Assembly (NCBI RefSeq): GCF_900142415.1 | Contig: NZ_FRAU01000002.1 | Coordinates: 1-64,000 of the forward strand | Direction: 5' to 3' | Source of the DNA: Rhodothermus profundi | GTDB taxonomy: Bacteria > Bacteroidota > Rhodothermia > Rhodothermales > Rhodothermaceae | DNA length: 64,000 nucleotides | In this document: positions 45,921 to 64,000 of the stretch, one piece after another | How the letters are laid out: the number at the start of each line of letters is the position of its first letter | Numbering within the stretch: the first letter of the stretch is position 1 | Translations under genes and position numbers: made by a program | The notes under the pieces: generated by a model | Seen by the model: the letters and a program-made list of their open reading frames with translations, nothing else | Database searches by the model: none | What the model was told of the DNA's origin: nothing

Positions 45921-46190
45921 ATGATGAATTTTTCTTATACTTTGTCCGAAGCAAACCCTGCAGGCCCGATGCTTTGGATCTACGGACCGGCATTGCTGCT
46001 GGTAGTAGGCGGTTTTGGGGTAGTCGTCTGGCTTATTCGATATGCCAACCGGCAGGCCAACGCCGGGGGCCGAGGATTTCGGCGGCCGGGCGTGCATGGG
46101 TCAACAGGACCGCGTAAAGGAGGACGTCGGGCTCGGCCGCGTCGACCTTCAAGCCGCGACCGGCGTCCTGTGCCGCCTCGCTTCCAGTAG
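45921..46190 (+). CDS. small single-helix membrane protein (uncertain)
   Basis: From the ATG at 45921 (a second ATG follows at once) a 89-residue frame encodes MMNFSYTLSEANPAGP, one membrane helix (LWIYGPALLLVVGGFGVVVWLI) and a basic Gly/Arg/Pro-rich tail. Its last 42 bases overlap the end of the convergent nas gene. The helix is credible but the tail looks like read-through of GC-rich DNA, so the real C-terminus or even the gene is doubtful. No family recognised. The remainder of 45692-45920 holds nothing I can support. Confidence 0.35.
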   Translation: MMNFSYTLSEANPAGPMLWIYGPALLLVVGGFGVVVWLIRYANRQANAGGRGFRRPGVHGSTGPRKGGRRARPRRPSSRDRRPVPPRFQ

Positions 46191-49100: not shown

Positions 49101-49661
49101 GCGACGAAACAGAATGGGGTGGCACCAGGCCGGGTTGGCGCCCGCAATAAGAATGCACTGGCTGTGTTCAATGTCGTCGTAGCAGATGGGTGGTGCGTCG
49201 TCGCCCAGCGTTAGCTTATATCCCGCTACGGCCGAGCTCATGCACAGCCGGGAGTTTGAGTCAATGTTGTGCGTGCCGAGGAAGCCTTTGACCAGCTTGG
49301 TGGCCACATAGTATTCCTCGGTCAGGAGCTGTCCCGACACGTAGAAGCCGATCGCATCGGGCCCATGGCGCTCGATGATTCGGCGAAATGTGGCAGCTAT
49401 GTGGTCGAGCGCCGCGTCCCAGTTGGTGCGGGTCAGGGGAGCGTTGCGATGAGGGCGTACCATCGGGTATAGCAGGCGGTCGTCGTGGTCCAGGGCCACC
49501 TGCAGCAGGTAGCGTCCTTTGCTGCAGAGCTGACCGCGGTTGGCGGGATGATCGGGGTCGCCGCTGAGCGTCAGGTGCCCTTGCCGATCGCGCCGAATTT
49601 CAATGCCGCAACCAACGCCGCAGTAGCAGCAGGTGGTTTTGATAGAAGCAGGGGTTGCCAT
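46149..49661 (-). CDS. assimilatory nitrate reductase catalytic domain fused to NirB-like FAD/BFD module
   Basis: A 1170-residue fusion. Residues 1-700 are a NasA/NapA-type molybdopterin oxidoreductase: N-terminal 4Fe-4S ligands Cys11, 14, 18 and 46 (CYCGVGCG ... NRGQLCSKG) and the C-terminal MoPterin-binding domain (LTTGRVRDQWHTRTKTGKV). Residues about 707-1095 are an FAD/NAD(P)H oxidoreductase (RIVIIGAGAAARAF, LVLATGSRPF, VLILGGGLLGLE, AIYAIGEVAEH), as in NirB/NasB. Residues 1112-1151 are a BFD-type [2Fe-2S] domain (CSCYNV ... CGSC). The protein probably takes electrons from NAD(P)H and reduces nitrate in the cytosol without a separate reductase. It is last in narK-nirA-fld-reductase-nas, six bases after its neighbour. 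Confidence 0.9.
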   Translation of the reverse strand: MATPASIKTTCCYCGVGCGIEIRRDRQGHLTLSGDPDHPANRGQLCSKGRYLLQVALDHDDRLLYPMVRPHRNAPLTRTNWDAALDHIAATFRRIIERHGPDAIGFYVSGQLLTEEYYVATKLVKGFLGTHNIDSNSRLCMSSAVAGYKLTLGDDAPPICYDDIEHSQCILIAGANPAWCHPILFRRIEAHRAANPDVRLIVVDPRRTQSAAVADLHLQIRPGTDIVLYNALAAYLIHHGYVDFDFITNHTEGFEALCNHLKNASLERAARLCDVPLEDLQQAAEWIGQSPALLTLWAMGLNQSTAGVANNLALINLSLLKGQIGRPGMGPFSLTGQPNAMGGREVGAMANLLPAHRDLNNPDHRAEVAAFWGVPSLSDRPGLTATEMIDALEKGRLKAIWIIGTNPALSQPELARLERAFARAELVVVQEISTRAATLQWADVVLPAASWLEKQGTMTNSERRITYLPRLLDPPGEARPDVWILCDFARRMGWGHAFSYQDESEIFNEYARLTRGTPIDISGVSYERLQRERSIQWPCPAPDHPGTPRLFTNHRFLTPSGRARLHPVPEPAPPEPPSPEFPFILTTGRVRDQWHTRTKTGKVARLNQHAPEPFLEMHPDDAAACGLSEGALAEVTGRTGKLTVRVHLTPTIKRGVVFLPMHWGQEAETADGRVNVLIPCRIDPISRQPALKFARVQVAPLRRQRQRIVIIGAGAAARAFLEAYRKHNDTDELYLFGREPHGFYNRVQLPEYLSGQRTVAQLRTLADAQLNALRVHFFRGVEVINVDRTARVVHGSNGVSLPYDRLVLATGSRPFIPPGIPITWPNVFTLRTLADADAIRTRLAGSQRVLILGGGLLGLEVAAALHEAGYTCTILELADRLMARQLDETAAALLREELEARGIRIYCNDAPETFLGTDCFEGVRTRTGRTLTADLLLVAVGTRPETRLATRIGLNVHRGVCVNDHLQTSDPAIYAIGEVAEHRGQLYGTTPAAEEQARVAAAHIAGDVWARYSGSVPFNILKIPDFDLCALGQSVVPPDAPAYEEVVLLDRKRRIYQKVVVRHNRLVGAILLGDRSAFAQFQRLIAEGLELDAPPHRLLQGSETAEPPEGPIVCSCYNVGRGNLERAIAEGCTELDDLCRRTRAGTGCGSCRPELQMLLEARRHRTPVAA

Positions 49662-49667
49662 AGCTCG

Positions 49668-50972
49668 TCAGTACACGTCGCGCTGATAACGACGGGATTT
49701 TTTGAGGTCGGCCAGATAAGCGCGGGCGGCCTCTTCCGAATGGCCGCCTTCCTGTTGGATGATGGTTAGCAGAGCCGCTTCGACGTCGCGCGCCATGCGC
49801 GTTGCGTCGCCACAGACGTACACGCAGGCGCCCTCTTCAAGCCAGGCGTAGAACGTTCGCGCCTGCGCCAGCATGCGGTGTTGGACATAGCATTTTTGCG
49901 CCTGGTCGCGCGAGAAGGCGGTATCGAGCCGCGTGAGCACACCTCGCTTGCACCATCGTTCCAATTCATCGCGATAGAGAAAGTCCGTGGCCCGGTTGCG
50001 TTCACCAAAGAAGAGCCAGTTGGGCCCGCGTGCGCCGGTGACTTCTCGCTCCTCTAAGAAAGCGCGAAACGGCGCGATGCCAGTGCCGGCGCCGATCATG
50101 ATGATCGGCGTATCGGGATCGTCGGGCAGGCGGAAGTTTGGGTTGGAGTGAATAAAGACGGGCACTGGCTGGTCCAGCGCTGCACGTTCGGCCAGAAACG
50201 TCGAGCAGACGCCTTTGCGCAGGCGGCCATGCGCGTTGTAGCGTACAACTCCCACCGTCAGGTGCACGGCTTCGGGATGTACGCGGGGGCTGGACGAGAT
50301 AGAGTACAGGCGGGGAGCCAGGGGCCGTAGCAGCTTGATCAGCGTGGTTGGATCCGGGCGAAAGGCTGGGGCTTCATGCAGCAGGTCAAGCAGGTCGCGC
50401 CCGGCGAGGTAGTCCTGCAGGGCGGCTGAGTCGTCCAGCAGTCTGGGCAGGAGTTCGTGGCTGGGGGCGGCAGCTTCAAGCAGGGGACGGGGCAACGTGC
50501 CTAGCTCATAGTGACGAAGCAGGGCTTCGCGGATGGGCAGTTCGGATCCACTGGAAAGCTGCACCGGCTCCTCGCCTGTGTAGCCAAGCGTTGTGAGCAG
50601 GGCTGCCACAAGCTCCGGATCGTTCTCCGGATATACGCCCAGCGCATCGCCCACCTCATATGAGAGACCGGATCCTTCCAGCGAAAAGATGACGTGACGG
50701 ATGTCTTTGGTCGAGCCTTCGCCGGTGAGTCGTTTGCTCTGGAGCAGGTGAGCAGGAAACGGATGTTTGCGGTCGTAACGCGGCGGTGCAGATGGTTCAG
50801 TGCTCGCCTGGTCATCACCGCCTGGCAGGGATGGCTGGGCCTCCGCCGTTAGCGAGTCAGAGACCCGTTCCAGCGAACGAAGGGCAAGCTGCAGGAAAAA
50901 GTCGTTGAGCCAGGCCCGTTGTTCGGGGGTGAACGGCGCAGTTTCGGGAAGGTACGGCACCTGCATGGCCAT
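49668..50972 (-). CDS. CysJ-type FAD/NADPH reductase domain protein (no flavodoxin domain)
   Basis: This 434-residue protein is the C-terminal half of sulfite reductase flavoprotein. An N-terminal segment MAMQVPYLPETAPFTPEQRAWLNDFF precedes the FAD domain (GDALGVYPENDPELVAALL, RLYSISSSPRVH). The NADPH domain carries GTGIAPFRAFLEER and ends in the diagnostic SRRYQRDVY, whose terminal Tyr covers FAD. The flavodoxin domain is encoded separately just upstream. In this operon it most likely supplies electrons to nitrite reductase rather than sulfite reductase. Confidence 0.88.
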   Translation of the reverse strand: MAMQVPYLPETAPFTPEQRAWLNDFFLQLALRSLERVSDSLTAEAQPSLPGGDDQASTEPSAPPRYDRKHPFPAHLLQSKRLTGEGSTKDIRHVIFSLEGSGLSYEVGDALGVYPENDPELVAALLTTLGYTGEEPVQLSSGSELPIREALLRHYELGTLPRPLLEAAAPSHELLPRLLDDSAALQDYLAGRDLLDLLHEAPAFRPDPTTLIKLLRPLAPRLYSISSSPRVHPEAVHLTVGVVRYNAHGRLRKGVCSTFLAERAALDQPVPVFIHSNPNFRLPDDPDTPIIMIGAGTGIAPFRAFLEEREVTGARGPNWLFFGERNRATDFLYRDELERWCKRGVLTRLDTAFSRDQAQKCYVQHRMLAQARTFYAWLEEGACVYVCGDATRMARDVEAALLTIIQQEGGHSEEAARAYLADLKKSRRYQRDVY

Positions 50973-50973
50973 T

Positions 50974-51594
50974 TCAGGCAGTTTGTTGCAGGGAAGATTC
51001 GGCGGCCGTGGCTGTTTTGAGGGCTTTTAAGATACCCTCGAACCACTGCTCGAAGGGGGCTTCCACGTCCACGTCGCAATCGATGCGGGGATGCAGGCGA
51101 TGGGCCCCCAGGGCGTCAAGACGGGCATCGAACGCCTTACCGGCAGCGCAGAAGTTGGGATAGCTGGAGTCGCCCAGCGCCAGCACGCTAAATTGTACGT
51201 GGCTAAGCGATGGAGCTTGGTCGCTGGACAGAAAATCCCAGAACGTCTGGGCATTGTCGGGCATATCGCCGTCCCCGTACGTGCTGGTGATAACGAGCAG
51301 GAAGCGTTCCTCGGCCAGTCGGGCGGGATCGTAGGCATCCATGCCGACCACCGTGGCTGAGAAGCCCTGCTGGTTTAGCCGACGGCCAGCTTCCTGGGCT
51401 AGCCCTTCGGCAGTCCCGGTCTGAGATCCAAACAGAATGGTTACGGCAGGGCGGGAGGAAGAGGTTGCCGAGGTGGCTGTCGCTTGCTGGACAGGTCGTG
51501 AGGAGAACAGCCCTGCCAGAAACCCGTTGAGCCAGGCCCGTTGGCTGGGCGTAAACGGTGCATTTTCTGGGATGTATGGGACCGTGTCCATCAT
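50974..51594 (-). CDS. flavodoxin-domain protein (CysJ N-terminal half)
   Basis: This 206-residue FMN protein has the flavodoxin phosphate loop FGSQTGTAEGLAQEAGRRL (about 56-74), TYGDGDMPDNA and ALGDSSYPNFCAAGKAFDARL. It begins MMDTVPYIPENAPFTPSQRAWLNGFLAGL, a segment nearly identical to the start of the downstream reductase. It starts four bases inside the nirA end and ends one base before the reductase start, so the two reductase halves are tightly coupled. Confidence 0.88.
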   Translation of the reverse strand: MMDTVPYIPENAPFTPSQRAWLNGFLAGLFSSRPVQQATATSATSSSRPAVTILFGSQTGTAEGLAQEAGRRLNQQGFSATVVGMDAYDPARLAEERFLLVITSTYGDGDMPDNAQTFWDFLSSDQAPSLSHVQFSVLALGDSSYPNFCAAGKAFDARLDALGAHRLHPRIDCDVDVEAPFEQWFEGILKALKTATAAESSLQQTA

Positions 51595-53402
51595 GGCGTC
51601 TGGCTTGGTTTGCTATCCGTGATCAAGGCTTCCAGTGCAGCGGGATCCAGCCGGCGGGTGAAAGCTGCAAACGATTCGTTTTCCTGACGCTGTTGGAGAT
51701 ACGTGTGGAGCAGATGAGCCAGAAGCGGCGGCACCTCTTCAAAGGGCACGCCGCGAGCCACGACGCGTGCCAGTCCCTGGTCTGCCTCCAGGCCTCCGCC
51801 CAAGACAATGTCGTAGCCCTCTACGGTTTCACCCGCGCTGGTTTTCACTTTGACGCCCAGCAGACCGATATCTCCGCAGTAGTGCTGGGCGCATGAGTGC
51901 GGACAGCCGGTCAGGTGAATGTTGAGCGGTTGATCTATATCTATGCCGGCTTCTTCTTCCAGATAGCGCACCAGCGCCAGGGCATGGGCTTTCGTGTTGG
52001 TGCGTGCGTAGGGGCAGCCAGCGTTTCCGGTGCAGGCTACCAGTCCCTGGCGCAGGGACGTGCTTTCGGGCGAGAGCCCGAGCTGGCGCAGGGCGGCGCA
52101 CAGCGGCTCCAGGTTTTCTTCGGCTACTCCGGGAATCAGCAAATTCTGAAAGACCGTTAGCCGCAGCTCGCCGGTGCCGTAGCGTTCGGCCAGGTCGGCC
52201 AGTGCGTGGAGTTGGCTGGCCTGAAGGCGGCCTACCGGTACGTCAATGCCCACGTAGTAATGCCCTTCCGGGCGCTGGGGGTGAATGCCGATATGGGCGC
52301 CCGGTATCCGGGGTGGACGTGGGGCGCAGGATGCTCGTGGAAAGCGGATGAGAGGAAAGGCCAGACGTTCTTGGACGGCTTCCATGAAACGCTCGACGCC
52401 CCAGCGCTCCAGCAGGTACTTTAGCCGCGCCTTTTTGCGGTTTGTGCGGTCACCGTGCTCCAGGTAGACGCGAATAATGGCTGCGGCGGTAGCAATGCAG
52501 GCTTCGGGCGGGACCATGAAGCCCGTATCCTGGGCAAAAGAACCGTGGCCGGTAATGCCTCCCAGTTCGATGCGAAAATAGACGCCAGGGGGAACGTCAT
52601 GTCCTTCCTCGACGCGCACGGCCACAAAGGCCAGATCGTTTGTGTCGGCGGCCGCTGTAATGACCCCGCCGCTGTCGAAGGCTACGTTGAACTTGCGAGG
52701 CAGATTGTACAGGTCGCGGCTGTGCAGGATGTAGTAGTAGAGCGAGCGAACGAGCGGCCGCACGTCATAGAGTTCCTGCAGATCGAAGCCGGTGGTCGGC
52801 GTAGCGGTGATGTTGCGGATATTGTCAGCTCCGGCGCCGCGCGAGGTCAGGCCCAGGTCAGCCAGCGCCATCAGCACATTGGCCGCATCCCGAGCGCCGA
52901 TTTCCCGGATCTGGATGTTAGCGCGGGTGGTGAGGTCCAGGTAGCCGGCGCCGTAGCGTTCGGCCAGGTCGGCCAGGCCGTGTGCCTGGCGACTGGAGAG
53001 GAAGCCGCCCGCAATCCGACAGCGCAGCATGAAGGCATTCTGGGCAGGGGCGACGTAGAAGAGCCCTAGCGCTTTGTAGCGGAAAACGTCGTCTCCTTCT
53101 GGGAATCGACCAGCTGCCGCGTTTTCCAGCACCCGATCCCAGATGTCGAGCGGGTGCTGCGCCAGCTTGATGCGCTCCTGTTTGCACAGACGGTCAACAG
53201 GCGTGCCGTAGAGCGTTTCGGCAGGCGGTGGAGTTGCCAGGTCGCGCACCGCCTGCTCTGGTTCGTGCGTAAGACGGCCGTCGGCGGTCTGCCCTACGAA
53301 GGTCAGTCCGCCGCGTTGCAGCACGCCGGCCATGAAACCTTGCAGGTACTGCTTCTGCTCTTCGCTGAAGGGTAAGTCAGGCATGTGCGGCATGGCTTGC
53401 AT
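51591..53402 (-). CDS. nirA: ferredoxin/flavodoxin-type nitrite reductase (sirohaem, 4Fe-4S)
   Basis: NirA reduces nitrite to ammonium with six electrons. I place the start at ATG 53402 (or 53393), as upstream codons lie in narK; this gives 603 residues. Two ferredoxin-like half domains are each followed by a sirohaem/4Fe-4S domain. The cluster ligands are the Cys in VACTGNAGCPYARTNTK and TGCPHSCAQHYCGDIGLLG. The N-terminal PHMPDLPFSEEQKQYLQGFMAGVL resembles the tag on the two reductase proteins downstream. Distinguishing nitrite from sulfite reductase relies mainly on context: narK and nas are its neighbours. Confidence 0.88.
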   Translation of the reverse strand: MQAMPHMPDLPFSEEQKQYLQGFMAGVLQRGGLTFVGQTADGRLTHEPEQAVRDLATPPPAETLYGTPVDRLCKQERIKLAQHPLDIWDRVLENAAAGRFPEGDDVFRYKALGLFYVAPAQNAFMLRCRIAGGFLSSRQAHGLADLAERYGAGYLDLTTRANIQIREIGARDAANVLMALADLGLTSRGAGADNIRNITATPTTGFDLQELYDVRPLVRSLYYYILHSRDLYNLPRKFNVAFDSGGVITAAADTNDLAFVAVRVEEGHDVPPGVYFRIELGGITGHGSFAQDTGFMVPPEACIATAAAIIRVYLEHGDRTNRKKARLKYLLERWGVERFMEAVQERLAFPLIRFPRASCAPRPPRIPGAHIGIHPQRPEGHYYVGIDVPVGRLQASQLHALADLAERYGTGELRLTVFQNLLIPGVAEENLEPLCAALRQLGLSPESTSLRQGLVACTGNAGCPYARTNTKAHALALVRYLEEEAGIDIDQPLNIHLTGCPHSCAQHYCGDIGLLGVKVKTSAGETVEGYDIVLGGGLEADQGLARVVARGVPFEEVPPLLAHLLHTYLQQRQENESFAAFTRRLDPAALEALITDSKPSQTP

Positions 53403-53415
53403 ACAGGCTGAAAGG

Positions 53416-54726
53416 TTACCGTACCGATGTAGGGGCCAGCAAACGAGCCATTTCTGCCTCCACGGCGCGTTCGTCAGCTTCCGAAAAGCGCACCGCAAAG
53501 GCCAGGAAGGCCATGGCGACGATAAGGAGTCCCAGGAGCAAGAGCGCCTGATTCCAGGGCAGAGCGCCCTTGAAGAGAAAGCCCGCCATGATAGCCCCCG
53601 CATTGCCACCTGCTCCAATGATGCCCGTTACAGAGCCCAGCGCTTTTCGGTTGATAAAGGGCACCACGGCATAGGTGGCTCCTTCTGCCATCTGAACGAA
53701 CAGGCTAAACAACACCAGCGTAACGACAGCCAATGCGAGCAATTGCATTTGCGAGAAAAGGATCAGCGCAAGGCCTTCGCCGAGCGTTGCCAGAAACAGC
53801 CAGCGCACGCGGCCGGCCAGGCCCCAGCGACGACCAAAAAGGTCGCCGACTACGCCCCCCAGCGTTCTCGCAAAAATGTTGGTCAGCCCGAAAAGGGCGG
53901 CAACTGTGCCGGCGGTCTTCAGGTCAAGCGAGAAATAGTCGGCAAAGTAGAGAGCTGCGATGTTGTTGATGGTGAGCTCAATGCCAAAGCAGGCTGCATA
54001 GAGTACAAACAGCACCCAAACGCGATAGTCGCGCGCAGCCTGTCGAAAGCTCCCTCGGCTGGTCAGGCGCGGATGATTCGGAAGGTCTTCAAAGTTACCT
54101 GCCGGGGTATCCTGTGTCAGGAAATAATAGGCGATGCCCGTACCCAGGCAGATCAACCCGGCAACCAGCATGGCGAGCCGCCAGCTCAGGGCTTCTGTGA
54201 AGCCCAGCCCCATAAAACCTGTAAAGACCAGAGGCATGACCATCTGAGTAACGCCACCGCCGAGGTTGCCCCATCCGGCGGTTGTGGCGTTCGCTGTGCC
54301 TACAATGTTCGGGGCGAACATAAGCGACGTGTGATACTGGGTAATCACAAAGCTCGCCCCTATGACCCCTATCACCAGTCGAAAAAGCAGAAAGGCTTCG
54401 TAGGAGTTGGCCAGGCCAATTGCCATTACCGGCAGGCTGCCCAGTATCAAGAGTCCGGCATAGGTGCGACGGGGACCGAATCGGTCGCAGAGCCGGCCAA
54501 TAACCATGCGGGCCAGAACGGTGGCGGCTACAGAGGCAATGATGGTATTTCCTACCTGGGCTGGAGTCAGCCCGAGCTCCTCCCGCACCACTTTCATGAG
54601 CGGTGCAATGCCGAACCAGGCGAAAAAACACACAAAGAAGGCAAACCAGGCCATGTGGAACGCCCGCATCTGCGGGGTCCGGAAGTTGAAAAGCTCAATG
54701 CGGGTAGCTTTCTGAAGAGACTGCAT
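53416..54726 (-). CDS. narK: NarK/NasA-type MFS nitrate transporter
   Basis: The 436-residue protein has twelve membrane helices and the two nitrate signatures of the nitrate/nitrite porter family: GWGNLGGGVTQMVMPLVF after helix 4 and GAGGNAGAIMAGFLF in helix 11. An Arg in each half (VIGRLCDRFGPRRTYAG, RTLGGVVGDLFGRRWGL) also fits. It is the first gene of the nitrate operon; nirA follows after 13 bases. Upstream, 54727-54999 contains several AT-rich palindromes. Confidence 0.93.
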   Translation of the reverse strand: MQSLQKATRIELFNFRTPQMRAFHMAWFAFFVCFFAWFGIAPLMKVVREELGLTPAQVGNTIIASVAATVLARMVIGRLCDRFGPRRTYAGLLILGSLPVMAIGLANSYEAFLLFRLVIGVIGASFVITQYHTSLMFAPNIVGTANATTAGWGNLGGGVTQMVMPLVFTGFMGLGFTEALSWRLAMLVAGLICLGTGIAYYFLTQDTPAGNFEDLPNHPRLTSRGSFRQAARDYRVWVLFVLYAACFGIELTINNIAALYFADYFSLDLKTAGTVAALFGLTNIFARTLGGVVGDLFGRRWGLAGRVRWLFLATLGEGLALILFSQMQLLALAVVTLVLFSLFVQMAEGATYAVVPFINRKALGSVTGIIGAGGNAGAIMAGFLFKGALPWNQALLLLGLLIVAMAFLAFAVRFSEADERAVEAEMARLLAPTSVR

Positions 54727-54999: not shown

Positions 55000-56187
55000 A
55001 TGCGCGAGCTACGAGACCTGCTGGAAGAGGCTGAACGGCTGACCGCAGGGAAAACGCCGCATGTGATTGCTACGGTCGTGCGCATTGGGGGCTCTACCTA
55101 TCGCCGACCCGGTGCTCGCATGATCGTGGAAGCAGACGGGACAAACCGAGGCACGATCAGTGGGGGCTGCCTGGAAGGCGAGGTAACCCGTCAGGCCCTT
55201 CAGCTCCTGGCCGATCAGGTGCCTGCGCGCCTGCTTCCTTTTGACCTGGCCGATGACGACTTGATTTACGGGTTTGGTACCGGTTGCGATGGAGTAGCCC
55301 ATGTGCTGCTGGAGCGGGTTCCGGTACCCGGGCGTTGCAACCCACTGGCATTGCTAAGCCAGTGCCTGAAACGTAGGCGACAGGCTGTGCTGGCCACTGT
55401 GATCGAGACAACCGAGGACCCATCGGACTGGCTGGGACGGCACCTGCTGCTTCGGGAAGACGGCCAGACGGAAGGCGACCTGCCGGAAGGTGTCGTGGCC
55501 TCAAAAATCCAGGAGGCAGCTCGTCAGATGCTGGAGCGGCTGCGCGCAGGCCGTGAGGAGCGAGGCTGGACCGTGCAGCGCTATACTGAAGGAGCAACGC
55601 AGATGGAAGTGCTCCTGGAAGCTGTGCAACTCCCCGTGCGCCTGCTCGTCTTCGGTGAAGGGCACGACGTATTTCCAGTGGTGCGTTTTGCCCGGGGACT
55701 GGGCTGGGAGGTGGAAGTTATTGGCCGCCGGCCACCGGCAGAACTCGCCCAACGCTTCCCAGAGGCGGACGTCTGTCGTTTCCTGATGCATCCGGAGCAA
55801 CTCACGCAGCATGTAGCGATTGACCGACGCACGGCCGCGCTGGTTATGAATCATACCTACCTGCGCGACCGCCAGATTCTGGAAACATTGTTGTTTGAAA
55901 GTGCCATCCCGTATATCGGGATGCTGGGGCCCCGGGAACGAACCGAGCGCATGCTAAACGAACTGACCCGCACGCGCGGCGAACGGCTGGAGGCTGAGCG
56001 GCATCGCATTTATGGACCTGTTGGGCTGGATATCGGCACCGAGACGGCTGAAGAGATCGCGCTAGCGGCCCTGGCCGAAATTCAGGCGGTGTTGCATGGC
56101 CGCTCAGCCCGTCCACTTCGGGAGCGTAAGACGCCGATTCACGGCGAACGACCGCCGCTGCCACGGCCGCTCAATGTATCCTCCTGA
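55000..56187 (+). CDS. XdhC/CoxI family molybdenum cofactor maturation protein
   Basis: XdhC-type proteins bind and sulfurate Moco for xanthine dehydrogenase or CO dehydrogenase. The 395-residue protein has the N-terminal XdhC-CoxI domain (TPHVIATVVRIGGSTYRRPGARMIVE, with Cys57 in TISGGCLEGE) and the Rossmann-like C-terminal domain (RLLVFGEGHDVFPVVRFARGLGWEVEVIGR, IPYIGMLGPRERTERML, GLDIGTETAEEIALAALAEIQAVL). It is on the opposite strand to the cox cluster and converges with mocA, with a 17-base tail overlap, but is very likely a partner of it. A second XdhC paralogue lies at 56782-57819. Confidence 0.9.
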   Translation: MRELRDLLEEAERLTAGKTPHVIATVVRIGGSTYRRPGARMIVEADGTNRGTISGGCLEGEVTRQALQLLADQVPARLLPFDLADDDLIYGFGTGCDGVAHVLLERVPVPGRCNPLALLSQCLKRRRQAVLATVIETTEDPSDWLGRHLLLREDGQTEGDLPEGVVASKIQEAARQMLERLRAGREERGWTVQRYTEGATQMEVLLEAVQLPVRLLVFGEGHDVFPVVRFARGLGWEVEVIGRRPPAELAQRFPEADVCRFLMHPEQLTQHVAIDRRTAALVMNHTYLRDRQILETLLFESAIPYIGMLGPRERTERMLNELTRTRGERLEAERHRIYGPVGLDIGTETAEEIALAALAEIQAVLHGRSARPLRERKTPIHGERPPLPRPLNVSS

Positions 56188-56785
56188 GCGCTTCAAAGGC
56201 TTCCGGCGTATCAAGGTCCTGCAAAATGTGGTCGGTAGCCATGGCCACACGCACCACATGCTCAGGATGGCGTTGCACCAGGCCTCGGCAGCCGGTCAGT
56301 CGCTGCTCGGAGAGAATAGCTTTTCGATAGTAGGCCGCAAACAGGACGGGATTGCCGCGTTGTCCGTTGAACTCGGGTACAATGATGCAGGCCGGATCCC
56401 GGACATAAGCGCGCTGGAACGCCTCTATGAGCTGGTCATATTCGGAAGCTTCGATCAGCGGCAGGTCTGACAGGCAAATCATGTAGCCGTGCGCGTCGGC
56501 GGGCGCCGCCGCCACGCCTGCCTGAATGGAAGTGGTCATGCCTTCGGCATAACGTGGGTTGTAGACAAACGCGACCGGCAGATTGGCCAGGGCCTCACGC
56601 ACGGCAGCAGCTTCATAACCCAGCACGACCACCACCGGAGCGGCCTGGCTGTCCAGAATCGTGGTAACCACGTGACGCACCAGGGGTTGGTCTCCAAAAG
56701 GCAGCAAGAGCTTGTTCCGGCCACCCATGCGCCGAGAAGATCCGGCGGCCAGCACAATGGCGACCACGCGACCGGTTGCATTCAT
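56171..56785 (-). CDS. mocA: molybdenum cofactor cytidylyltransferase-like (MocA/MobA family)
   Basis: The 204-residue protein is a nucleotidyltransferase of the MobA-like clade: VVAIVLAAGSSRRMGGRNKLLLPFG (residues 7-31), VVVVLGYEAAAV, EGMTTSIQAGVAAAP, CLSDLPLIEASEYDQLI and RGNPVLFAAYYRKAIL. In CO dehydrogenase the cofactor is molybdopterin cytosine dinucleotide, so MocA-type CTP transfer is expected. The gene overlaps the XdhC-HMA gene by four bases at the end of the cox cluster. Confidence 0.87.
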   Translation of the reverse strand: MNATGRVVAIVLAAGSSRRMGGRNKLLLPFGDQPLVRHVVTTILDSQAAPVVVVLGYEAAAVREALANLPVAFVYNPRYAEGMTTSIQAGVAAAPADAHGYMICLSDLPLIEASEYDQLIEAFQRAYVRDPACIIVPEFNGQRGNPVLFAAYYRKAILSEQRLTGCRGLVQRHPEHVVRVAMATDHILQDLDTPEAFEALRRIH

Positions 56786-57819
56786 GGCTCGGCTACGGTG
56801 TCGGTGCGCAGATGATAGCCGCGGGCTTTGAGAGCTTCGGCCAGGACGCTTAGCGTCACCCGGGCGGGATCATAGGCGACCCGGGCATGGCCGAGCTCCA
56901 CGGCATGCACGACCACGCCAGGGAGGGCCTGGAGCGTTTGTTCGACGGTGTGAAGGCAGTGGGCGCAGCTCATGCCTTCAATGTGCAGGGTAATTTCGAT
57001 CAAGCCTTCAAGGGAGGGCAGCTTGTCTGGAAGCGCCGGGGATGGATTCTGGTGGCGTTCCTGCACGATTTCGGCCAGGATGCTCAGGGCAATTTCTTCC
57101 GGCGTGCGGGCACCGAGATCCAGTCCAGCCGGGGCGCGGACAGCCGCCAGCCGGTCCCGAGGCACGCCTTGTTCGGCCAGCAGCTCGCGCAGGCGCGCTG
57201 CTTTGCGACGGCTGGCCACCAGGGCGACGTACCGGAACGGTTGGGATAGCGCAGCTTTCAGGGCTTCTTCGTCCCTTTCGCCCTGGGTAGCCACGACCGC
57301 AAACGCTCCGGGTTTCAGGGGTAGATTTCTCAAGGAGAACGAAGGCTCGCACTGGTCGGCTTCCGGGAACAGCTCGGAGGATGCCTCAGGATCAGCAACC
57401 AGCACGTGGTAGCGCAGCGTTCGCCCAAGCTGTACCAGGGCCTGGGCGACGGCCGAGTGTCCGAGCACCAGCAGTTGAGGAGGGGGCAGAAGCGGTTCAA
57501 TATACACGTCGAGCGTGCCGCCGCTGTAGCAGGTCATTGCATAGGCGACAATGCCTTCTACTTCAACTTCGGTCGTTTCGGGCGTGATGCGTACCAGGCG
57601 AGGACGCCCGTCGCGCATGGCGCGCAGCGCTTCCCGGATAACGACCGGACGCGTGCACCCACCACCTATCCATCCATGAAGCGTGCCGTCGGGCAAGATC
57701 AACGCCTTGTCTCCGGGCTTTCCGGAGATCGGAGCCTCGTAGCGGACGACGATGGCCAGGGCGCAGGGTTCACCCCGCGCTGTCTGTTCTCGAGCCTGTT
57801 CCAGAATAGGATCAAGCAT
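56782..57819 (-). CDS. XdhC/CoxF-like maturation protein with C-terminal HMA (copper-chaperone-like) domain
   Basis: The start is ATG 57819 (MLDPILEQAREQTARG); it overlaps the coxE end by eight bases. The 345-residue product has an XdhC-CoxI N domain (about 20-90: ALAIVVRYEAPISGKPGDKALIL and Cys55 in GWIGGGCTRP), an XdhC Rossmann domain (about 125-260: LLVLGHSAVAQALVQLG, LDLGARTPEEIALSILAEIVQ), and an additional C-terminal heavy-metal-associated domain (about 277-340). The metal motif is MSCAHC with Cys285 and Cys288, and the ferredoxin-like fold ends ALKARGYHLR. An HMA domain on XdhC is not standard. In a Mo-Cu CO dehydrogenase cluster it suggests delivery of Cu(I). Strong domain call; the function is inference. 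Confidence 0.88.
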   Translation of the reverse strand: MLDPILEQAREQTARGEPCALAIVVRYEAPISGKPGDKALILPDGTLHGWIGGGCTRPVVIREALRAMRDGRPRLVRITPETTEVEVEGIVAYAMTCYSGGTLDVYIEPLLPPPQLLVLGHSAVAQALVQLGRTLRYHVLVADPEASSELFPEADQCEPSFSLRNLPLKPGAFAVVATQGERDEEALKAALSQPFRYVALVASRRKAARLRELLAEQGVPRDRLAAVRAPAGLDLGARTPEEIALSILAEIVQERHQNPSPALPDKLPSLEGLIEITLHIEGMSCAHCLHTVEQTLQALPGVVVHAVELGHARVAYDPARVTLSVLAEALKARGYHLRTDTVAEP

Positions 57820-58975
57820 GACGCAGGTGCTGCTCCAGCCGAAGCAGACTGTCGAGGTTGTGGGCCGGGTGAAATACGTCGAGGTAAGGAAGCGCTGCCT
57901 GCATTCCACGTGCTATGGGCGCATAGCCTTCCATTCCCATCAGCGGGTTCAGCCAGATGATCCGGCGACAGCGGGCGCGGATCGCTTGCAGGGCGTGGGC
58001 CAGCAGCGCAGGGTCGCCGGTGTCGAGGCCATCACTCAGAATCAGCACAAGTGTGCGGCGCGAAAGCAGCCGGCGGCCGTAATGCTCCAGAAACGTCATC
58101 AGGCAGGCGCCAATGCGGGTACCGCTGGACCAGGGCGTGGGCGTCTCGGCCAGTTGACGTAGGCTTTCAGGGAGCGATGGTTGGCGCAGAAGCTCCGTGA
58201 TGCAGATCAGCTCGGTGCTGAAGACGAACGAGTCGATCCGCCGGAAGTGTTGCTGCAGTGCATGGAGAAAACGGAGCAGGAAATAGCTGTAGCGGTCCAT
58301 AGAGCCGCTTACGTCAAGCAGGGCCACCAGGCGGGGGCGGTCTGGACGGCGTTGACGGTAGCGGAGCGTCACTAGCTCGCCTCCTCGGTCCAGGTTACGG
58401 CGGATGGTGCGGCGCAGATCCACGTAGCGGCCTTGCCACGCAGTTTTCTGGCGTCGTGAGAGGCGCACGTGCAGTTGGCGGAAAAGTTGGGCCGCCAGCG
58501 CCTCGAGCTGTTCCTGGTCAGACGCCGGCACCCGGGCAAAATCTACCTGGCGCAAGCGGTGGGCCGTGCTAGCCCCTGCTGTTGTGTTGCCCTCTTCTTC
58601 AGGCGGGGCCGTGGCATGTTGCAGCGTCATGAGCAGCGGAGCGGTCCGTTGTTCTGTAGCGGGAGGGCGAGCGCGTTGCGGGCGCGGGCTGGGCGGTGCG
58701 TTGCCGTCCGGTGAACGGCCCAGCCAGTAGGCATCGAAGAGCGCGTCAAAGCGCTGGTATTCATCGGGCGAGATGCATAGCAGTGCCCGCAGGGCTGCCC
58801 GGAAGCGATTGGGCCGGTGCAGCAGTTCGCTGCGGGCTATCCGTAGCGCATCGAGCGTCTCGGCAACGCCGACGGTGAAGCCGTGCGCTCTCAGGAGCGC
58901 GCAGAAGCGCCGCACAGCCCCTGTGAAATCGGTAGACGCCGCAGGAGCAGGCGGTGTGGCATCTGGAGCAGCCAT
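57812..58975 (-). CDS. coxE: vWA-domain protein CoxE
   Basis: CoxE acts with the CoxD ATPase in maturing CO dehydrogenase. The 387-residue protein has a basic/Pro-rich N-terminal half and a von Willebrand A domain in the C-terminal half with a complete MIDAS motif DVSGSM (LVALLDVSGSMDRYSYF) and later Thr/Asp residues (STELICITELL, LILSDGLDTGD). A MoxR AAA+ protein is encoded three bases upstream, the typical AAA+/vWA pair. Confidence 0.9.
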   Translation of the reverse strand: MAAPDATPPAPAASTDFTGAVRRFCALLRAHGFTVGVAETLDALRIARSELLHRPNRFRAALRALLCISPDEYQRFDALFDAYWLGRSPDGNAPPSPRPQRARPPATEQRTAPLLMTLQHATAPPEEEGNTTAGASTAHRLRQVDFARVPASDQEQLEALAAQLFRQLHVRLSRRQKTAWQGRYVDLRRTIRRNLDRGGELVTLRYRQRRPDRPRLVALLDVSGSMDRYSYFLLRFLHALQQHFRRIDSFVFSTELICITELLRQPSLPESLRQLAETPTPWSSGTRIGACLMTFLEHYGRRLLSRRTLVLILSDGLDTGDPALLAHALQAIRARCRRIIWLNPLMGMEGYAPIARGMQAALPYLDVFHPAHNLDSLLRLEQHLRHA

Positions 58976-58978
58976 GGT

Positions 58979-59872
58979 TCAGGCTTCGAGGGTAGCCAGC
59001 AGATCTTCGAGCGTGTGGTTACGCAGGCGCTCAAGGTCTTCGGCCGATTTGAGCAGGCAGCCCGCGGTGCGCGTCACAACGGTTGTGTTGAGGCGCTGCA
59101 CGCCCAGCGCTACCAGGGCCCGGGCCCAGTCGAGCGTTTCGGCAATGCCGGGAATTTTGTGCAAGCGTTCTTTGCGCAGGGCCTGCACGAAGCGCACTAC
59201 CTGTTGTGCCAGCTCGGTCTCAATATCAGGGAGGCGCTTCTGAATAATGCGCAGTTCTTTGGCTTCGGTAGGATAGTCGAGCCAGTAGTAGAGGCAACGG
59301 CGTTTGAGGGCATCGCTCAGTTCACGCGTGCGGTTAGAGGTGAGGATGACATGCGGGACATGGCGCGCGCGAATGGTGCCCAGCTCCGGAATGGAGATCT
59401 GGAAAGCCGACAGTAGTTCGAGGAGAAACGCCTCAAATTCCTCATCGGCTCGGTCGATCTCATCAATGAGGAGCACTGGCGCTTTTGTTTCGGCCTGAAT
59501 AGCTTTCAGCAGCGGTCGCGCTAGCAGGTAGCTTTCACTGAACAGGTGCTGTTCCCGCTCTTCCAGGGGGATGTCGCTCTGCTCCCAGAGCTTGATGGCC
59601 AGGAGTTGGCGGGGATAGTTCCATTCATAGACGGCTGAATGGACGTCGAGCCCCTCGTAGCATTGCAGGCGGATCAGCTCCGTGTCAAGGTAACCAGCCA
59701 GTGCGTAGGCAATCTCGGTTTTGCCTACGCCTGCGTCGCCCTCCACGAGCAGGGGCCGGCGCAGCGTTAGGACGAGATACAGGACGGTAGCCAGCGCCTC
59801 ATCCGCCACGTACCCCTGCTGCTCCAAACCATCCATCAACCCCGCAATGCGGGCGGCGGCCTCACGGGTCAT
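58979..59872 (-). CDS. coxD: MoxR-type AAA+ ATPase CoxD
   Basis: CoxD is an AAA+ ATPase that drives insertion of sulfur/copper into CO dehydrogenase. The 297 residues include Walker A GDAGVGKT (45-52), Walker B LLIDEIDRADEEF (about 135-147), a sensor-1 VILTSNRTRELS and an arginine-finger-type DALKRRCLYYWLDYP. It overlaps coxG by four bases and is followed by coxE after three bases. Confidence 0.92.
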   Translation of the reverse strand: MTREAAARIAGLMDGLEQQGYVADEALATVLYLVLTLRRPLLVEGDAGVGKTEIAYALAGYLDTELIRLQCYEGLDVHSAVYEWNYPRQLLAIKLWEQSDIPLEEREQHLFSESYLLARPLLKAIQAETKAPVLLIDEIDRADEEFEAFLLELLSAFQISIPELGTIRARHVPHVILTSNRTRELSDALKRRCLYYWLDYPTEAKELRIIQKRLPDIETELAQQVVRFVQALRKERLHKIPGIAETLDWARALVALGVQRLNTTVVTRTAGCLLKSAEDLERLRNHTLEDLLATLEA

Positions 59873-60426
59873 TCTCCTTCTTTTTTCCCAAAGAACCGAC
59901 CGGCAACCGACTTGATGCCTTCCTTGATCAGCGAGCCAGCGCGGAGCGCCTGACCGGCCTCTTCGGGGGCTTCTCCTGCCAGCAGCGATTCAAAACATTC
60001 CGTGAACTGGTCAAAGAGGCGACTGGACACATCCTCAATCAGGCGCGAGCCGAATTGCGCCAGCATCCCGGTTACAGAGATTTCGATTTGATTGGTAATT
60101 TCGGTGGCCCCGTCGTCCAGCGCCCGGGCGCGGCCCCGCATGGTCATGGAAGCGCTCCCCTTGCCTCGCGCATCAAGTCCTCGGCCTACCAGTTCAATGG
60201 TATGCGTCTCGTGATCGAGCGTGTTGATGGTGATTTCTCCTTTGTAACTGGCACTGATGGGGCCTACCTTCAGGCTGACGGTTCCCCGGTAGTGGCGCTC
60301 GTCAATCTGCTCGGTGAGCTGAGCACCAGGCACGCAGGGGACCACCTTGGCCGGATCGCTCAGGTAACTCCAGACCTTCTCCAGCGGCTGATGAACGGTA
60401 AAGGTCTTTTCGATCGTGGTTTTCAT
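59869..60426 (-). CDS. coxG: CO dehydrogenase membrane-anchoring protein CoxG (SRPBCC family)
   Basis: CoxG proteins recruit CO dehydrogenase to the cytoplasmic membrane. The 185 residues form an SRPBCC fold (KTFTVHQPLEKVWSYLSDPAKVVPCVPGAQLTE, near residues 8-40; GKGSASMTMRGRARALDDGATEITNQIEISVTGMLAQFGSRLIEDVSSRLFDQF). A C-terminal amphipathic/basic tail (IKEGIKSVAGRFFGKKEGE) probably contacts the membrane. It follows coxL after 63 bases and overlaps coxD by four. Confidence 0.9.
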   Translation of the reverse strand: MKTTIEKTFTVHQPLEKVWSYLSDPAKVVPCVPGAQLTEQIDERHYRGTVSLKVGPISASYKGEITINTLDHETHTIELVGRGLDARGKGSASMTMRGRARALDDGATEITNQIEISVTGMLAQFGSRLIEDVSSRLFDQFTECFESLLAGEAPEEAGQALRAGSLIKEGIKSVAGRFFGKKEGE

Positions 60427-60489: not shown

Positions 60490-62856
60490 TCACACCACCC
60501 CCTTCTCATGGAGGATTTTCCAGACCTTATAGGGCGTAATAGGAATATCAATGTGGGTGACGCCATAGGGCGAGAGGGCATCGACCACCGCGTTGACAAT
60601 GGCGGCCGGGGCCCCGACCGTGGCCGACTCGCCTACGCCTTTGGCGCCCAGCGGATGATGCGGCGAAGGCGTAACGGTACGGGCTGTTTCCCAGCGTGGC
60701 GTTTCGACGGCCGTTGGCAGCAGGTAGTCCATGAACGATCCGCTCAGGATATTGCCTTCTTCATCATAAACCAGCTCCTCCATCATGGCCGGCGCGAAGC
60801 CCATGGTAAGCCCGCCATGAATCTGCCCCTCGACGATCATGGGATTAATCACGTGCCCGCAGTCGTCTACGGCCACAAACCGCCGGATTTTCACCTGTCC
60901 GGTGCCTTTGTCGATATCCACCACGCAGATGTACGAGCCAAAGGGGAAGGTCAAATTGGGCGGGTCATAGTAGTGGACGGCTTCCAGGCCAGCTTCCATG
61001 CCCGGCGGATGGTTGGTGTAGGCCGCCATGGCAATGTCCTGGATGGTCACGGACTTGTCCGGTGCTCCCTTGACGCGGAAGACGCCCGGTTCCCATTCCA
61101 GATCTTCTTCACTGACCTCCAGGAGATAGGCGGCGATTTTTCGGGCTTTCTCGCGCACCTTCCGAGCGGCCATGGCAGCAGCGGCTCCCGCTGTTGGGGT
61201 AGAGCGGCTGGCATACGTGCCCAGTCCGTAAGGAGCGGTATCGGTGTCGCCTTCTTCGATCTGGACGTGCTCGGCCGGGATGCCTAGCTCCTCGGCAATG
61301 ATTTGCGCGTAGGTAGTTTCATGGCCCTGCCCCTGCGACTTGGTTCCAAAGCGCGCAATGGCTTTGCCGGTGGGGTGGATGCGCAGCTCGCAGCTCTCGA
61401 ACATTTTAATGCCGAGGATGTCGAAGTGGCGCGACGGGCCTGCTCCGACAATCTCCGTAAAGCTGCTGATGCCAATGCCCATCAGTTCGCCCCGCGCGCG
61501 CCGCTCGGCCTGTTCGCGCCGCAGCGCTTCGTAGCCGATAAGGTCCATGGCCTTGCGCAGGGCGGCAGGATAGTTGCCACTGTCGTACTCCCAGCCAAGC
61601 GCTGACTTGTAGGGAAATTGGTCCGGCTGAATAAAATTCTTGAAACGGAGTTCGGCTGGATCCATGCCCAGTTTCTGGGCCAGCACGTCTACCAGACGCT
61701 CAATGGTATGAACCGCTTCGGTTACGCGGAACGAGCAGCGGTAGGCAATGCCGCCTGGCGGTTTGTTCGTGTAGACAGCGTCGACCTCGACAAAGGCATG
61801 CTTGATATCGTACGAGCCTGTGCAGATGGAAAACAAACCGGCTGGAAACTTGGAAGGATTAGCAGCGGCATCTGTGTAGCCGTGGTCCGCAAGCGTTTTA
61901 ATCCGAAGCGCCGTGATCTTGCCGTCTTTGGTGGCAGCCAGTTCGGCCGTAATGTGATAATCGCGCGCGAATGAGTCGGCCTGGAGATTTTCAGACCGGT
62001 CTTCGATCCACTTGACCGGCTTACCCAGCAGCACGGAAGCCGCGATCGCGATGACATAGCCGGGATAGATGGGCACCTTGCCGCCGAAGCCTCCTCCGAT
62101 GTCGGGGGCAATAACCCGAATTTTTTCTTCCGACAGACCTACGTGGCCAGCAACCAGAGCAAGGGCCGTGCGCACCACATGCGGCGCCTGGGTGGTCATG
62201 TAAACGGTGAGCTTGCCCTCGACGGGGTCATAGTCGGCCACGCAGCCGCACGTTTCGATGGAGGCTACATGAATGCGTGGGATGTAAAGCTGTTGTTTGA
62301 CTACAACATCCGCTTCCTGAAATGCGCGTTCGGTAGCCTCCCGGTCCCCGATTTCCCAGTGCCAGATGTGATTGTCCGTTTTTCCCTTGTCGGTGCGGAG
62401 CACAGGCGCATCGGGCTCTAGTGCCCGGAACGGATCAATAACCGGCTCCAGGGGCTCATATTCAACTTCGATAGCTTCGACAGCGTCGGCGGCTATGTAA
62501 CGGTCTGTAGCGATGACGGCGGCCACTTCTTGCGCCTGGTACATGACGCGGTCGGTGGGCAGGACCATCTGCGTGTCGCCCATCAGGGTGGGCATCCAGT
62601 GCAGGTTGTATTTTTCCAAGTCTTTGCCCGTAATGACCGCCACAACGCCCTCCATGGCCAGCGCCCGCTCTGCATTGATGTTTTTGATGCGGGCATGGGC
62701 AAAGGGGCTACGGACAATGTCCATGTAGAGCATGCCAGGCAGCTTGATGTCGTCCACGTAGCGCCCTTTACCGAACAGAAAGCGGGCATCTTCCTTACGC
62801 TTCATGCGATGCCCCATGCCGCAGATTGTAGGGGGCGTCCGGACTTCGGTTTCCAT
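60490..62856 (-). CDS. coxL: aerobic CO dehydrogenase large subunit, Mo-Cu form I
   Basis: CoxL oxidises CO to CO2 at a Mo-S-Cu centre. The 788-residue protein has the diagnostic form I loop AYRCSFR at residues 371-377, whose Cys374 binds copper (form II enzymes have AYRGAGR). Other signs are IGGGFGGKVPIYPGYVIA (about 253-270), FGTKSQGQGHETTYAQI and GAKGVGESATVG with the catalytic Glu743 near Mo. It follows coxS by 34 bases; coxG, coxD and coxE follow, the classical cluster. Confidence 0.95.
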   Translation of the reverse strand: METEVRTPPTICGMGHRMKRKEDARFLFGKGRYVDDIKLPGMLYMDIVRSPFAHARIKNINAERALAMEGVVAVITGKDLEKYNLHWMPTLMGDTQMVLPTDRVMYQAQEVAAVIATDRYIAADAVEAIEVEYEPLEPVIDPFRALEPDAPVLRTDKGKTDNHIWHWEIGDREATERAFQEADVVVKQQLYIPRIHVASIETCGCVADYDPVEGKLTVYMTTQAPHVVRTALALVAGHVGLSEEKIRVIAPDIGGGFGGKVPIYPGYVIAIAASVLLGKPVKWIEDRSENLQADSFARDYHITAELAATKDGKITALRIKTLADHGYTDAAANPSKFPAGLFSICTGSYDIKHAFVEVDAVYTNKPPGGIAYRCSFRVTEAVHTIERLVDVLAQKLGMDPAELRFKNFIQPDQFPYKSALGWEYDSGNYPAALRKAMDLIGYEALRREQAERRARGELMGIGISSFTEIVGAGPSRHFDILGIKMFESCELRIHPTGKAIARFGTKSQGQGHETTYAQIIAEELGIPAEHVQIEEGDTDTAPYGLGTYASRSTPTAGAAAAMAARKVREKARKIAAYLLEVSEEDLEWEPGVFRVKGAPDKSVTIQDIAMAAYTNHPPGMEAGLEAVHYYDPPNLTFPFGSYICVVDIDKGTGQVKIRRFVAVDDCGHVINPMIVEGQIHGGLTMGFAPAMMEELVYDEEGNILSGSFMDYLLPTAVETPRWETARTVTPSPHHPLGAKGVGESATVGAPAAIVNAVVDALSPYGVTHIDIPITPYKVWKILHEKGVV

Positions 62857-62890: not shown

Positions 62891-63394
62891 TCAGGAGCTG
62901 GCCGTGGTCTGCTCGCGCTCGCGCAGTTTGCGCGCCGCATACTGGATGGCCTTTACGATGTTGACGTAGCCGGTGCAGCGGCACAGGTTGCCCGAAATAC
63001 CCCAGCGGATTTCATCTTCGGTGGGGTCGGGGTTTTTAGCCAGCAACTCGGCGGCACGCATGATCATACCCGGGGTGCAATAGCCGCACTGCAGTCCATG
63101 CTCCACATGAAACCCTTCTTGGAGAGGATGCATCTGGCCGTTTTCGGCCATGCCTTCGATGGTCTTGATGGTAGCGCCGTCGGCCTGCACGGTCAGCACC
63201 GTGCAGGATTTGACAGCCCGGCCGTTCATCAGCACGGTGCAGGCGCCGCAGTGCGTCGTGTCGCAGCCAATATGCGTGCCGGTCAGGTTCAGATGCTCTC
63301 GTAGAAAGTGCACCAGCAACAGCCGGGGCTCTACTTCGGCCGTATGCGTTGTGCCGTTGACCGTGAGGGTTACTGTTACGGTTTGCTTTGCCAT
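62891..63394 (-). CDS. coxS: CO dehydrogenase small iron-sulfur subunit
   Basis: CoxS carries two [2Fe-2S] clusters that pass electrons from the Mo-Cu site to FAD. The 167 residues show the plant-type site [21 protein letters not shown] (about 44-64) and the C-terminal site [10 protein letters not shown] ... [13 protein letters not shown]. It sits three bases after coxM and before coxL. Confidence 0.96.
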
Positions 63395-63397
63395 GGC

Positions 63398-64000
63398 TTA
63401 TTGACCTCCCTGGGCTCGCTCAAGGGCTCGACGAAAAGCGCGGCGGGTAAGCTCCCGCACCATTGCGCGTTTATATTCGGCCGAACCGCGCAGGTCCGAC
63501 CGGGGGTTGCAATCTTCTGCGGCCATTTGTGCCGCTTCGTCGATGCGCTCTGGCGTAGGATGCTGACCCTTCAGGTGGGCGCAGGAGCGGGCGGCAAAAA
63601 GGGGCACGTGGGCGACGTTTGTCAGGCCGATTCCTACGTAGCTCAGCGTGCCGTCTTCGGCCAGCGAAAGCTGCACGGCCACGGCCGCTGTGGCATAGTC
63701 GCCCACTTTTCGTTCCAGCTTCTCATAGGCGCCCCCGCTTCGTGGCGGGGCGTCGGGATACGGATGGCCGTGAGGATTTCGTCCGGTTCCAGCGCCGTGG
63801 TGTAGAAGTCCAGGAAGAACTCCCGGGCCGGGATGGTGCGCTCGCCACGTGGCCCGACCACGACAAGCTGTGCGTCATAGGCCATCATGGTGGCGGGGTG
63901 GTCGTTGCCGGGGTCGCCATGGGCCAGGTTGCCACCGACTGTGCCCATGTTGCGCACCTGCGGATCAGCAATCCAGCGCGTCGTCTCGTAGAGGAGCGGG
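63398..64000 (-). CDS. coxM: CO dehydrogenase FAD subunit CoxM, frameshifted and cut by the window end
   Basis: CoxM binds FAD and passes electrons to the respiratory chain. Two frames carry its sequence: 63643-63957 and onward to the window edge (ETTRWIADPQVRNMGTVGGNLAHGDPGNDHPA, ending in RIPTPRHEAGAP), then another frame from about 63740 down to 63398 (GGAYEKLERKVGDYATAAVAVQLSLAEDG to the stop). The break is near a run of five C at 63732-63736; one extra base there would restore a continuous protein. The N-terminus lies beyond the window. It may be a genuine frameshift or a homopolymer sequencing error. It is followed by coxS after three bases. Confidence 0.8.

Follow-up and report, generated by a model that had tools for sequence, protein, structure and literature searches.

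CoxF with a CopZ-like tail: a candidate copper-loading module in the maturation of form I Mo–Cu CO dehydrogenase

It is likely that the 345-residue protein encoded, from an ATG start, at 56782–57819 on the minus strand of the window (a 64,000-nucleotide stretch of Rhodothermus profundi DNA) is CoxF, a maturation factor of form I CO dehydrogenase, with a built-in metallochaperone domain that would bind Cu(I), take it along the route proposed below and hand it over. Mo–Cu CO dehydrogenase consumes atmospheric CO and has a single Cu atom. A Cu-donor role for CoxF is not new, having already been proposed (PMC4240915); what is new is that CoxF, as judged from its sequences, usually bears a C-terminal metal-binding domain. 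In the literature searched, which was mostly without subscription journals, there was no report of an XdhC joined with an HMA or YHS domain, or of a YHS domain with CO dehydrogenase.

The reading frame of the gene is intact in the R. profundi assembly. Pfam and the translation of the open reading frame confirm the domains that had been predicted: an XdhC_CoxI domain at residues 14–78 (57586–57780; 65.9 bits), an XdhC_C Rossmann domain at residues 116–251 (57067–57474; 117.7 bits) and an HMA domain at residues 277–336 (56812–56991; 40.1 bits, cut-off 24.8), the last holding the CxxC metal motif Cys285-Ala-His-Cys288 within MSCAHC (56956–56967). All are encoded on the minus strand, as is a Met95-Thr-Cys97 motif in the XdhC core (57529–57537) that may be an acceptor site. 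The fusion is not a product of chance, since it is conserved over its full length in five other genomes of the genus (82–87%) and in three further Rhodothermales genera (47–57%), with both cysteines kept throughout; MSCxHC is conserved in every HMA-type CoxF compared. Among NCBIfam models, the HMA domain scores best against CopZ (52.2 bits, below the CopZ cut-off of 91; MerP 30, mercury reductase 27), and it shares 32 of 60 residues with the CopZ-like protein encoded in the same genome, a closer match than to the other HMA domains there. By these scores the tail is a CopZ-like domain, not a CopZ protein.

AlphaFold2 models of this HMA form (mean pLDDT 91.1) and of one YHS form of CoxF (mean pLDDT 90.1) both show a folded tail joined to the XdhC core by a linker of low confidence. 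Residues 274–332 of the former are predicted with high confidence to adopt the HMA-type β-α-β-β-α fold, so the domain combines a Pfam score above cut-off and the MxCxxC motif with a ferredoxin-like fold, the last taken from the model. In Foldseek searches, the core of the CoxF models matched the XdhC structures 2we7/2we8, and the HMA-form model matched CopZ (2qif) with a TMt of 0.85. CopZ/Atx1-type Cu(I) chaperones and the HMA domains of Cu-ATPases share the fold and the MxCxxC motif, but these are a free protein or an ATPase domain, whereas here a molybdoenzyme maturation factor carries the HMA domain as its tail.

The gene lies in a form I cox cluster with the minus-strand order coxM-coxS-coxL-coxG-coxD-coxE-coxF-mocA. 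It overlaps coxE (57812–58975, encoding a VWA-domain protein) by 8 bases, and its stop codon is joined by an ATGA overlap to the gene of a MocA-like MCD cytidylyltransferase (56171–56785), both as originally described. The other genes are coxD (58979–59872; AAA+ MoxR-like ATPase), coxG (59869–60426), coxL (60490–62856), coxS (62891–63394; [2Fe-2S] subunit) and coxM (63398–63999; FAD subunit), which continues beyond the end of the window. CoxL is a form I Mo–Cu CO dehydrogenase large subunit, with 1298 bits against TIGR02416 (cut-off 991) and with the form I loop AYxCSFR, here AYRCSFR (61726–61746, minus strand), an active-site loop that includes the Cu-ligand cysteine. In the R. profundi assembly the coxM sequence changes frame once, near 63700–63757; the gene is unbroken in three genomes of the same genus and in Roseithermus. 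The break is either an assembly error or a real lesion, and the enzyme of this strain may therefore not be intact. A separate, divergently transcribed XdhC gene at 55000–56187 (plus strand), also predicted, is confirmed by Pfam to encode a protein without a metal-binding tail, a probable chaperone for MCD or sulfuration. The stretch adjoining the cox genes, at 46149–54726, resembles a nitrate/nitrite assimilation cluster by sequence: it encodes a 1170-residue molybdopterin oxidoreductase fused to a pyridine nucleotide-disulfide/[2Fe-2S] part, a siroheme reductase-like protein (51591–53618), a flavodoxin (50974–51594), a flavin reductase (49668–50972) and an MFS transporter (53416–54726).

On sequence and gene context, the window protein is a CoxF orthologue plus an extra domain, because it is 43% identical over residues 5–257 to CoxF of Oligotropha (Afipia) carboxidovorans OM5 (pHCG3, WP_013913733; found in a search of plasmid records), occupies the same position after coxD and coxE, and falls in the CoxF clade of the tree. 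Its XdhC_CoxI and XdhC_C core and its place beside coxD/coxE and a form I coxL are those of a CoxF. In OM5, too, the coxF gene comes directly after those for the MoxR ATPase (CoxD) and the VWA protein (CoxE), and the two proteins share domains, gene order, form I partner and clade; the OM5 protein, however, ends ~13 residues past the core, with neither HMA nor YHS. A maximum-likelihood tree built from 93 cores places every sampled form I CoxF, that of the window included, in one clade apart from other XdhCs (SH-aLRT 97), and all tailed proteins fall inside this clade. The XdhC of xanthine dehydrogenase (TIGR02964; the 2we7/2we8 family) has the two-domain core fold in common with the window protein, but belongs to a different clade and, in the examples examined, has no metal-binding tail. 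It is hardly credible that the protein is instead a standard XdhC that acts as a chaperone in MCD insertion and sulfuration and whose HMA tail is incidental. The core domains are those of such a chaperone, and XdhC proteins do handle MCD and sulfuration for other enzymes (PMC2997495), but a general XdhC assignment is ruled out by a score of 41 bits against the equivalog TIGR02964 (cut-off 161.6), by the separate clade and by the second, tail-less XdhC next to the gene; moreover, Rhodothermales keep the tail throughout, and comparison with the YHS-bearing relatives points to a replacement, not a loss.

Mutants of coxE and coxF in O. carboxidovorans, described by Pelzmann and co-workers (PMC4240915), make a CO dehydrogenase without Cu in which the Mo sites are partly sulfurated; a requirement of CoxF for Cu insertion is known from this organism only. 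CoxD is needed there for sulfuration. It was proposed in the mutant study that CoxF supplies Cu by way of a suspected CPSHG motif and a phytase motif. Among the orthologues examined, CPSHG occurs in OM5 CoxF only; RHGxR, the proposed phytase motif, is found in one of 16 tail-less and in none of 139 tailed CoxF proteins, and the wider motif MCPxxxxM in eight of the 16 tail-less ones. The only published model of Cu delivery rests on the mutants and on these weak, unconserved motifs. The original prediction had also given the XdhC part of the window protein a role in sulfuration; this is unlikely, because sulfuration in O. carboxidovorans depends on CoxD and the Cu-free coxE/coxF mutants are nevertheless partly sulfurated. 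By analogy with the CoxF/CoxI pair noted in PMC2997495, the second XdhC would be a better candidate for MCD handling than CoxF.

CoxF cores were sought in one genome per species with patterns that leave the tail out of account, and 82 proteins, from the best 80 of 445 loci plus OM5, Thermomicrobium roseum and the window, were scanned for tails. A YHS domain (PF04945) was present in 74 of the 82 and an HMA domain in five, which leaves OM5 CoxF and two ORFs truncated by the ends of their contigs. The set spans Bacteroidota, Acidobacteriota, Verrucomicrobiota, Chloroflexota, Nitrospirota, SAR324, Calditrichia and some Gammaproteobacteria. Further CoxF proteins, from plasmid records, have a YHS tail in the archaeon Natronorubrum, a YHS-like one in Deinococcus and no tail in the actinomycete Nonomuraea and in alphaproteobacteria. 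The YHS-tailed proteins, such as those of T. roseum (WP_143714800) and Natronorubrum bangense (WP_006068000), have an orthologous core in the same type of cluster and carry their tail at the same place, but it is YHS/TRASH-like (PVC...YFCCxxC) where that of the window is HMA; both are annotated only as 'XdhC family protein'. The synteny coxS-L-(G)-D-E-F is identical for the two versions. All nine CoxF proteins in 114 Rhodothermales genomes are of the HMA type, which is confined to that order in everything sampled. The XdhC–HMA architecture picked out at the start is thus real and conserved, but it is not the general form: HMA is, among the genomes sampled, a tail of Rhodothermales only, and YHS is the general one. 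In the Pseudomonadota sample, 14 form I CoxF proteins were tail-less and one had YHS; no stand-alone YHS or HMA gene was found within ~9 kb of tail-less cox loci. In the XdhC core, Cys97 is invariant in CoxF, and Met95 is present in 120 of the 139 tailed proteins and in none of the 16 tail-less ones.

The evidence for an association of the tail with form I coxL comes from a few deep lineages, the counts that follow being clustered by phylogeny and not independent events. Co-occurrence with form I coxL is as strict as predicted among 40 relatives, where the eight genomes with a form I coxL above cut-off are exactly the eight with CoxF-HMA. One genome of the same genus (G001) has neither, by joint loss or because they were never gained. 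An XdhC–HMA without form I coxL, which would have told against the prediction, was found in none of 398 Pseudomonadota, 301 Chloroflexota, 247 Acidobacteriota and 394 genomes of the phylum. For Chloroflexota, with coxL sought within ~9 kb and the loop variants [AS][YF]xCSFR admitted, CoxF beside a form I coxL had YHS in 56 of 56 sampled cases (53 and three fetched as a check). None of ~35 Chloroflexota XdhCs without form I in view had a tail; long ORFs were deliberately fetched for this group, because tail-less controls might otherwise reflect selection by ORF length. Nor does any second XdhC at a cox locus have one. Of Acidobacteriota, another three form I CoxF proteins were examined, two with YHS and one with a CC-rich tail only; other XdhCs of that phylum have no tail, except for one frame-broken CoxF with YHS in the next frame. 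Two tailed CoxF proteins of Chloroflexota (L225, L300) are only apparent exceptions, as their contigs do not extend far enough to include coxL. In 9 of the 32 MAGs whose CoxF lies close to the end of a contig, no form I coxL was found within ~9 kb, which may be due to fragmentation. Nine form I-like CoxL proteins (at L204, L207, L211, L212, L215, L218, L237, L282 and L295) have SYRCSFR or AFRCSFR in place of AYxCSFR and are therefore missed by strict motif searches. Genome G000 also has a form II coxL (AYRGAGR), at G000:C4:99078-101372 (L297), with no XdhC found within ~9 kb. Outside Pseudomonadota, the tail could be used as a sequence marker for form I, that is, true CO-oxidising, clusters.

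The restriction of the tail to a Cu-containing form I partner also bears on the suggestion, which we consider distinctly improbable, that the tail is a docking module for CopZ, CoxE or membrane partners, or binds some other thiophilic metal, and carries no active-site Cu. HMA and YHS domains can bind other metals or partners, and the YHS-like tail of one CoxF, from Deinococcus sp. AJ005 (L320, 8940–10059), has lost its first ligand cysteine; the Cys ligands are, however, essentially invariant in HMA tails and in 115 alignable YHS tails, although the latter had been found by a Cys motif.

The best reading of the tail is that of a swappable, built-in copper-loading domain, which would bind copper and pass it on; the CopZ-like HMA domain on CoxF supports the original idea of a Cu chaperone-like domain dedicated to a cox maturation protein. 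Both YHS and HMA domains are found in Cu-ATPases. Although unrelated to each other, the two metal-binding domains are both familiar from copper transporters and occupy the same position on CoxF, the one maturation factor previously linked to Cu loading. This is strong comparative support for a metallochaperone, and the YHS domain in other phyla probably does the same job, although the presence of HMA or YHS alone is no proof of copper. It is proposed that the HMA domain would load Cu(I) from the cytosolic pool or from CopZ through Cys285 and Cys288. The XdhC part, held by CoxE and drawing on its shared affinity for molybdenum hydroxylases, would dock onto folded apo-CoxMSL in which Mo has already been sulfurated with CoxD. 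Cu(I) would then move to Mo-SH and the cysteine of AYRCSFR, perhaps via Cys97 and Met95 of the XdhC core. The tail cysteines are specific targets for mutation and make the hypothesis of Cu delivery testable.

Against a copper-loading tail stand the tail-less CoxF proteins of most Pseudomonadota and of one actinomycete, the CC-rich tail in Acidobacteriota and the Deinococcus tail short of one ligand. O. carboxidovorans has a functional CoxF without a tail, so the reaction does not require one in every organism. The same functional tail-less protein would suit a tail that acts as a copper sensor or gate, switching on CoxF or the CoxDE machine while the active-site Cu comes from elsewhere, and there is a precedent in an adenylyl cyclase whose Cu-specific activation depends on a mediating YHS domain (PMC4626032). 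We nevertheless regard such a switch as rather unlikely: the CO dehydrogenase of coxE and coxF mutants is Cu-free (PMC4240915), and the exchange of YHS for a CopZ-like transfer domain is better suited to the handling of cargo than to a conserved allosteric switch.

How a copper-loading tail might have come and gone can be considered from the tree, in which HMA is nested among YHS lineages and the tail-less CoxF proteins of Pseudomonadota form one nested clade (SH-aLRT 97–98). In the simplest account, YHS would be the old tail, replaced once by HMA and lost at least once, on a root that is unproven. A separate origin of HMA at one locus (L063) was considered and set aside, as a tree with all HMA tails in one clade is not rejected (AU 0.55). 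We somewhat favour the wider view of CoxF as a modular metallochaperone family for the Mo–Cu site, in which an XdhC-type docking core carries a YHS Cu-loading tail, probably ancestral and reaching archaea; this would have been exchanged in Rhodothermales for a CopZ-derived HMA domain and lost in the majority of Pseudomonadota, whose CoxF would rely on a different source of Cu or on the Cys/Met motif of its core. Some CoxF proteins are more elaborate: two (L064, L114) have two YHS domains in tandem, and others (L098, L135, L137, L138, L321, L326 and L201) have Cys-rich stretches in their linkers or tails, sometimes without YHS, among them SCCSGSK, CSCGCG, ASCCGGG, SSSSCC and FCCM, which are possibly extra metal sites.
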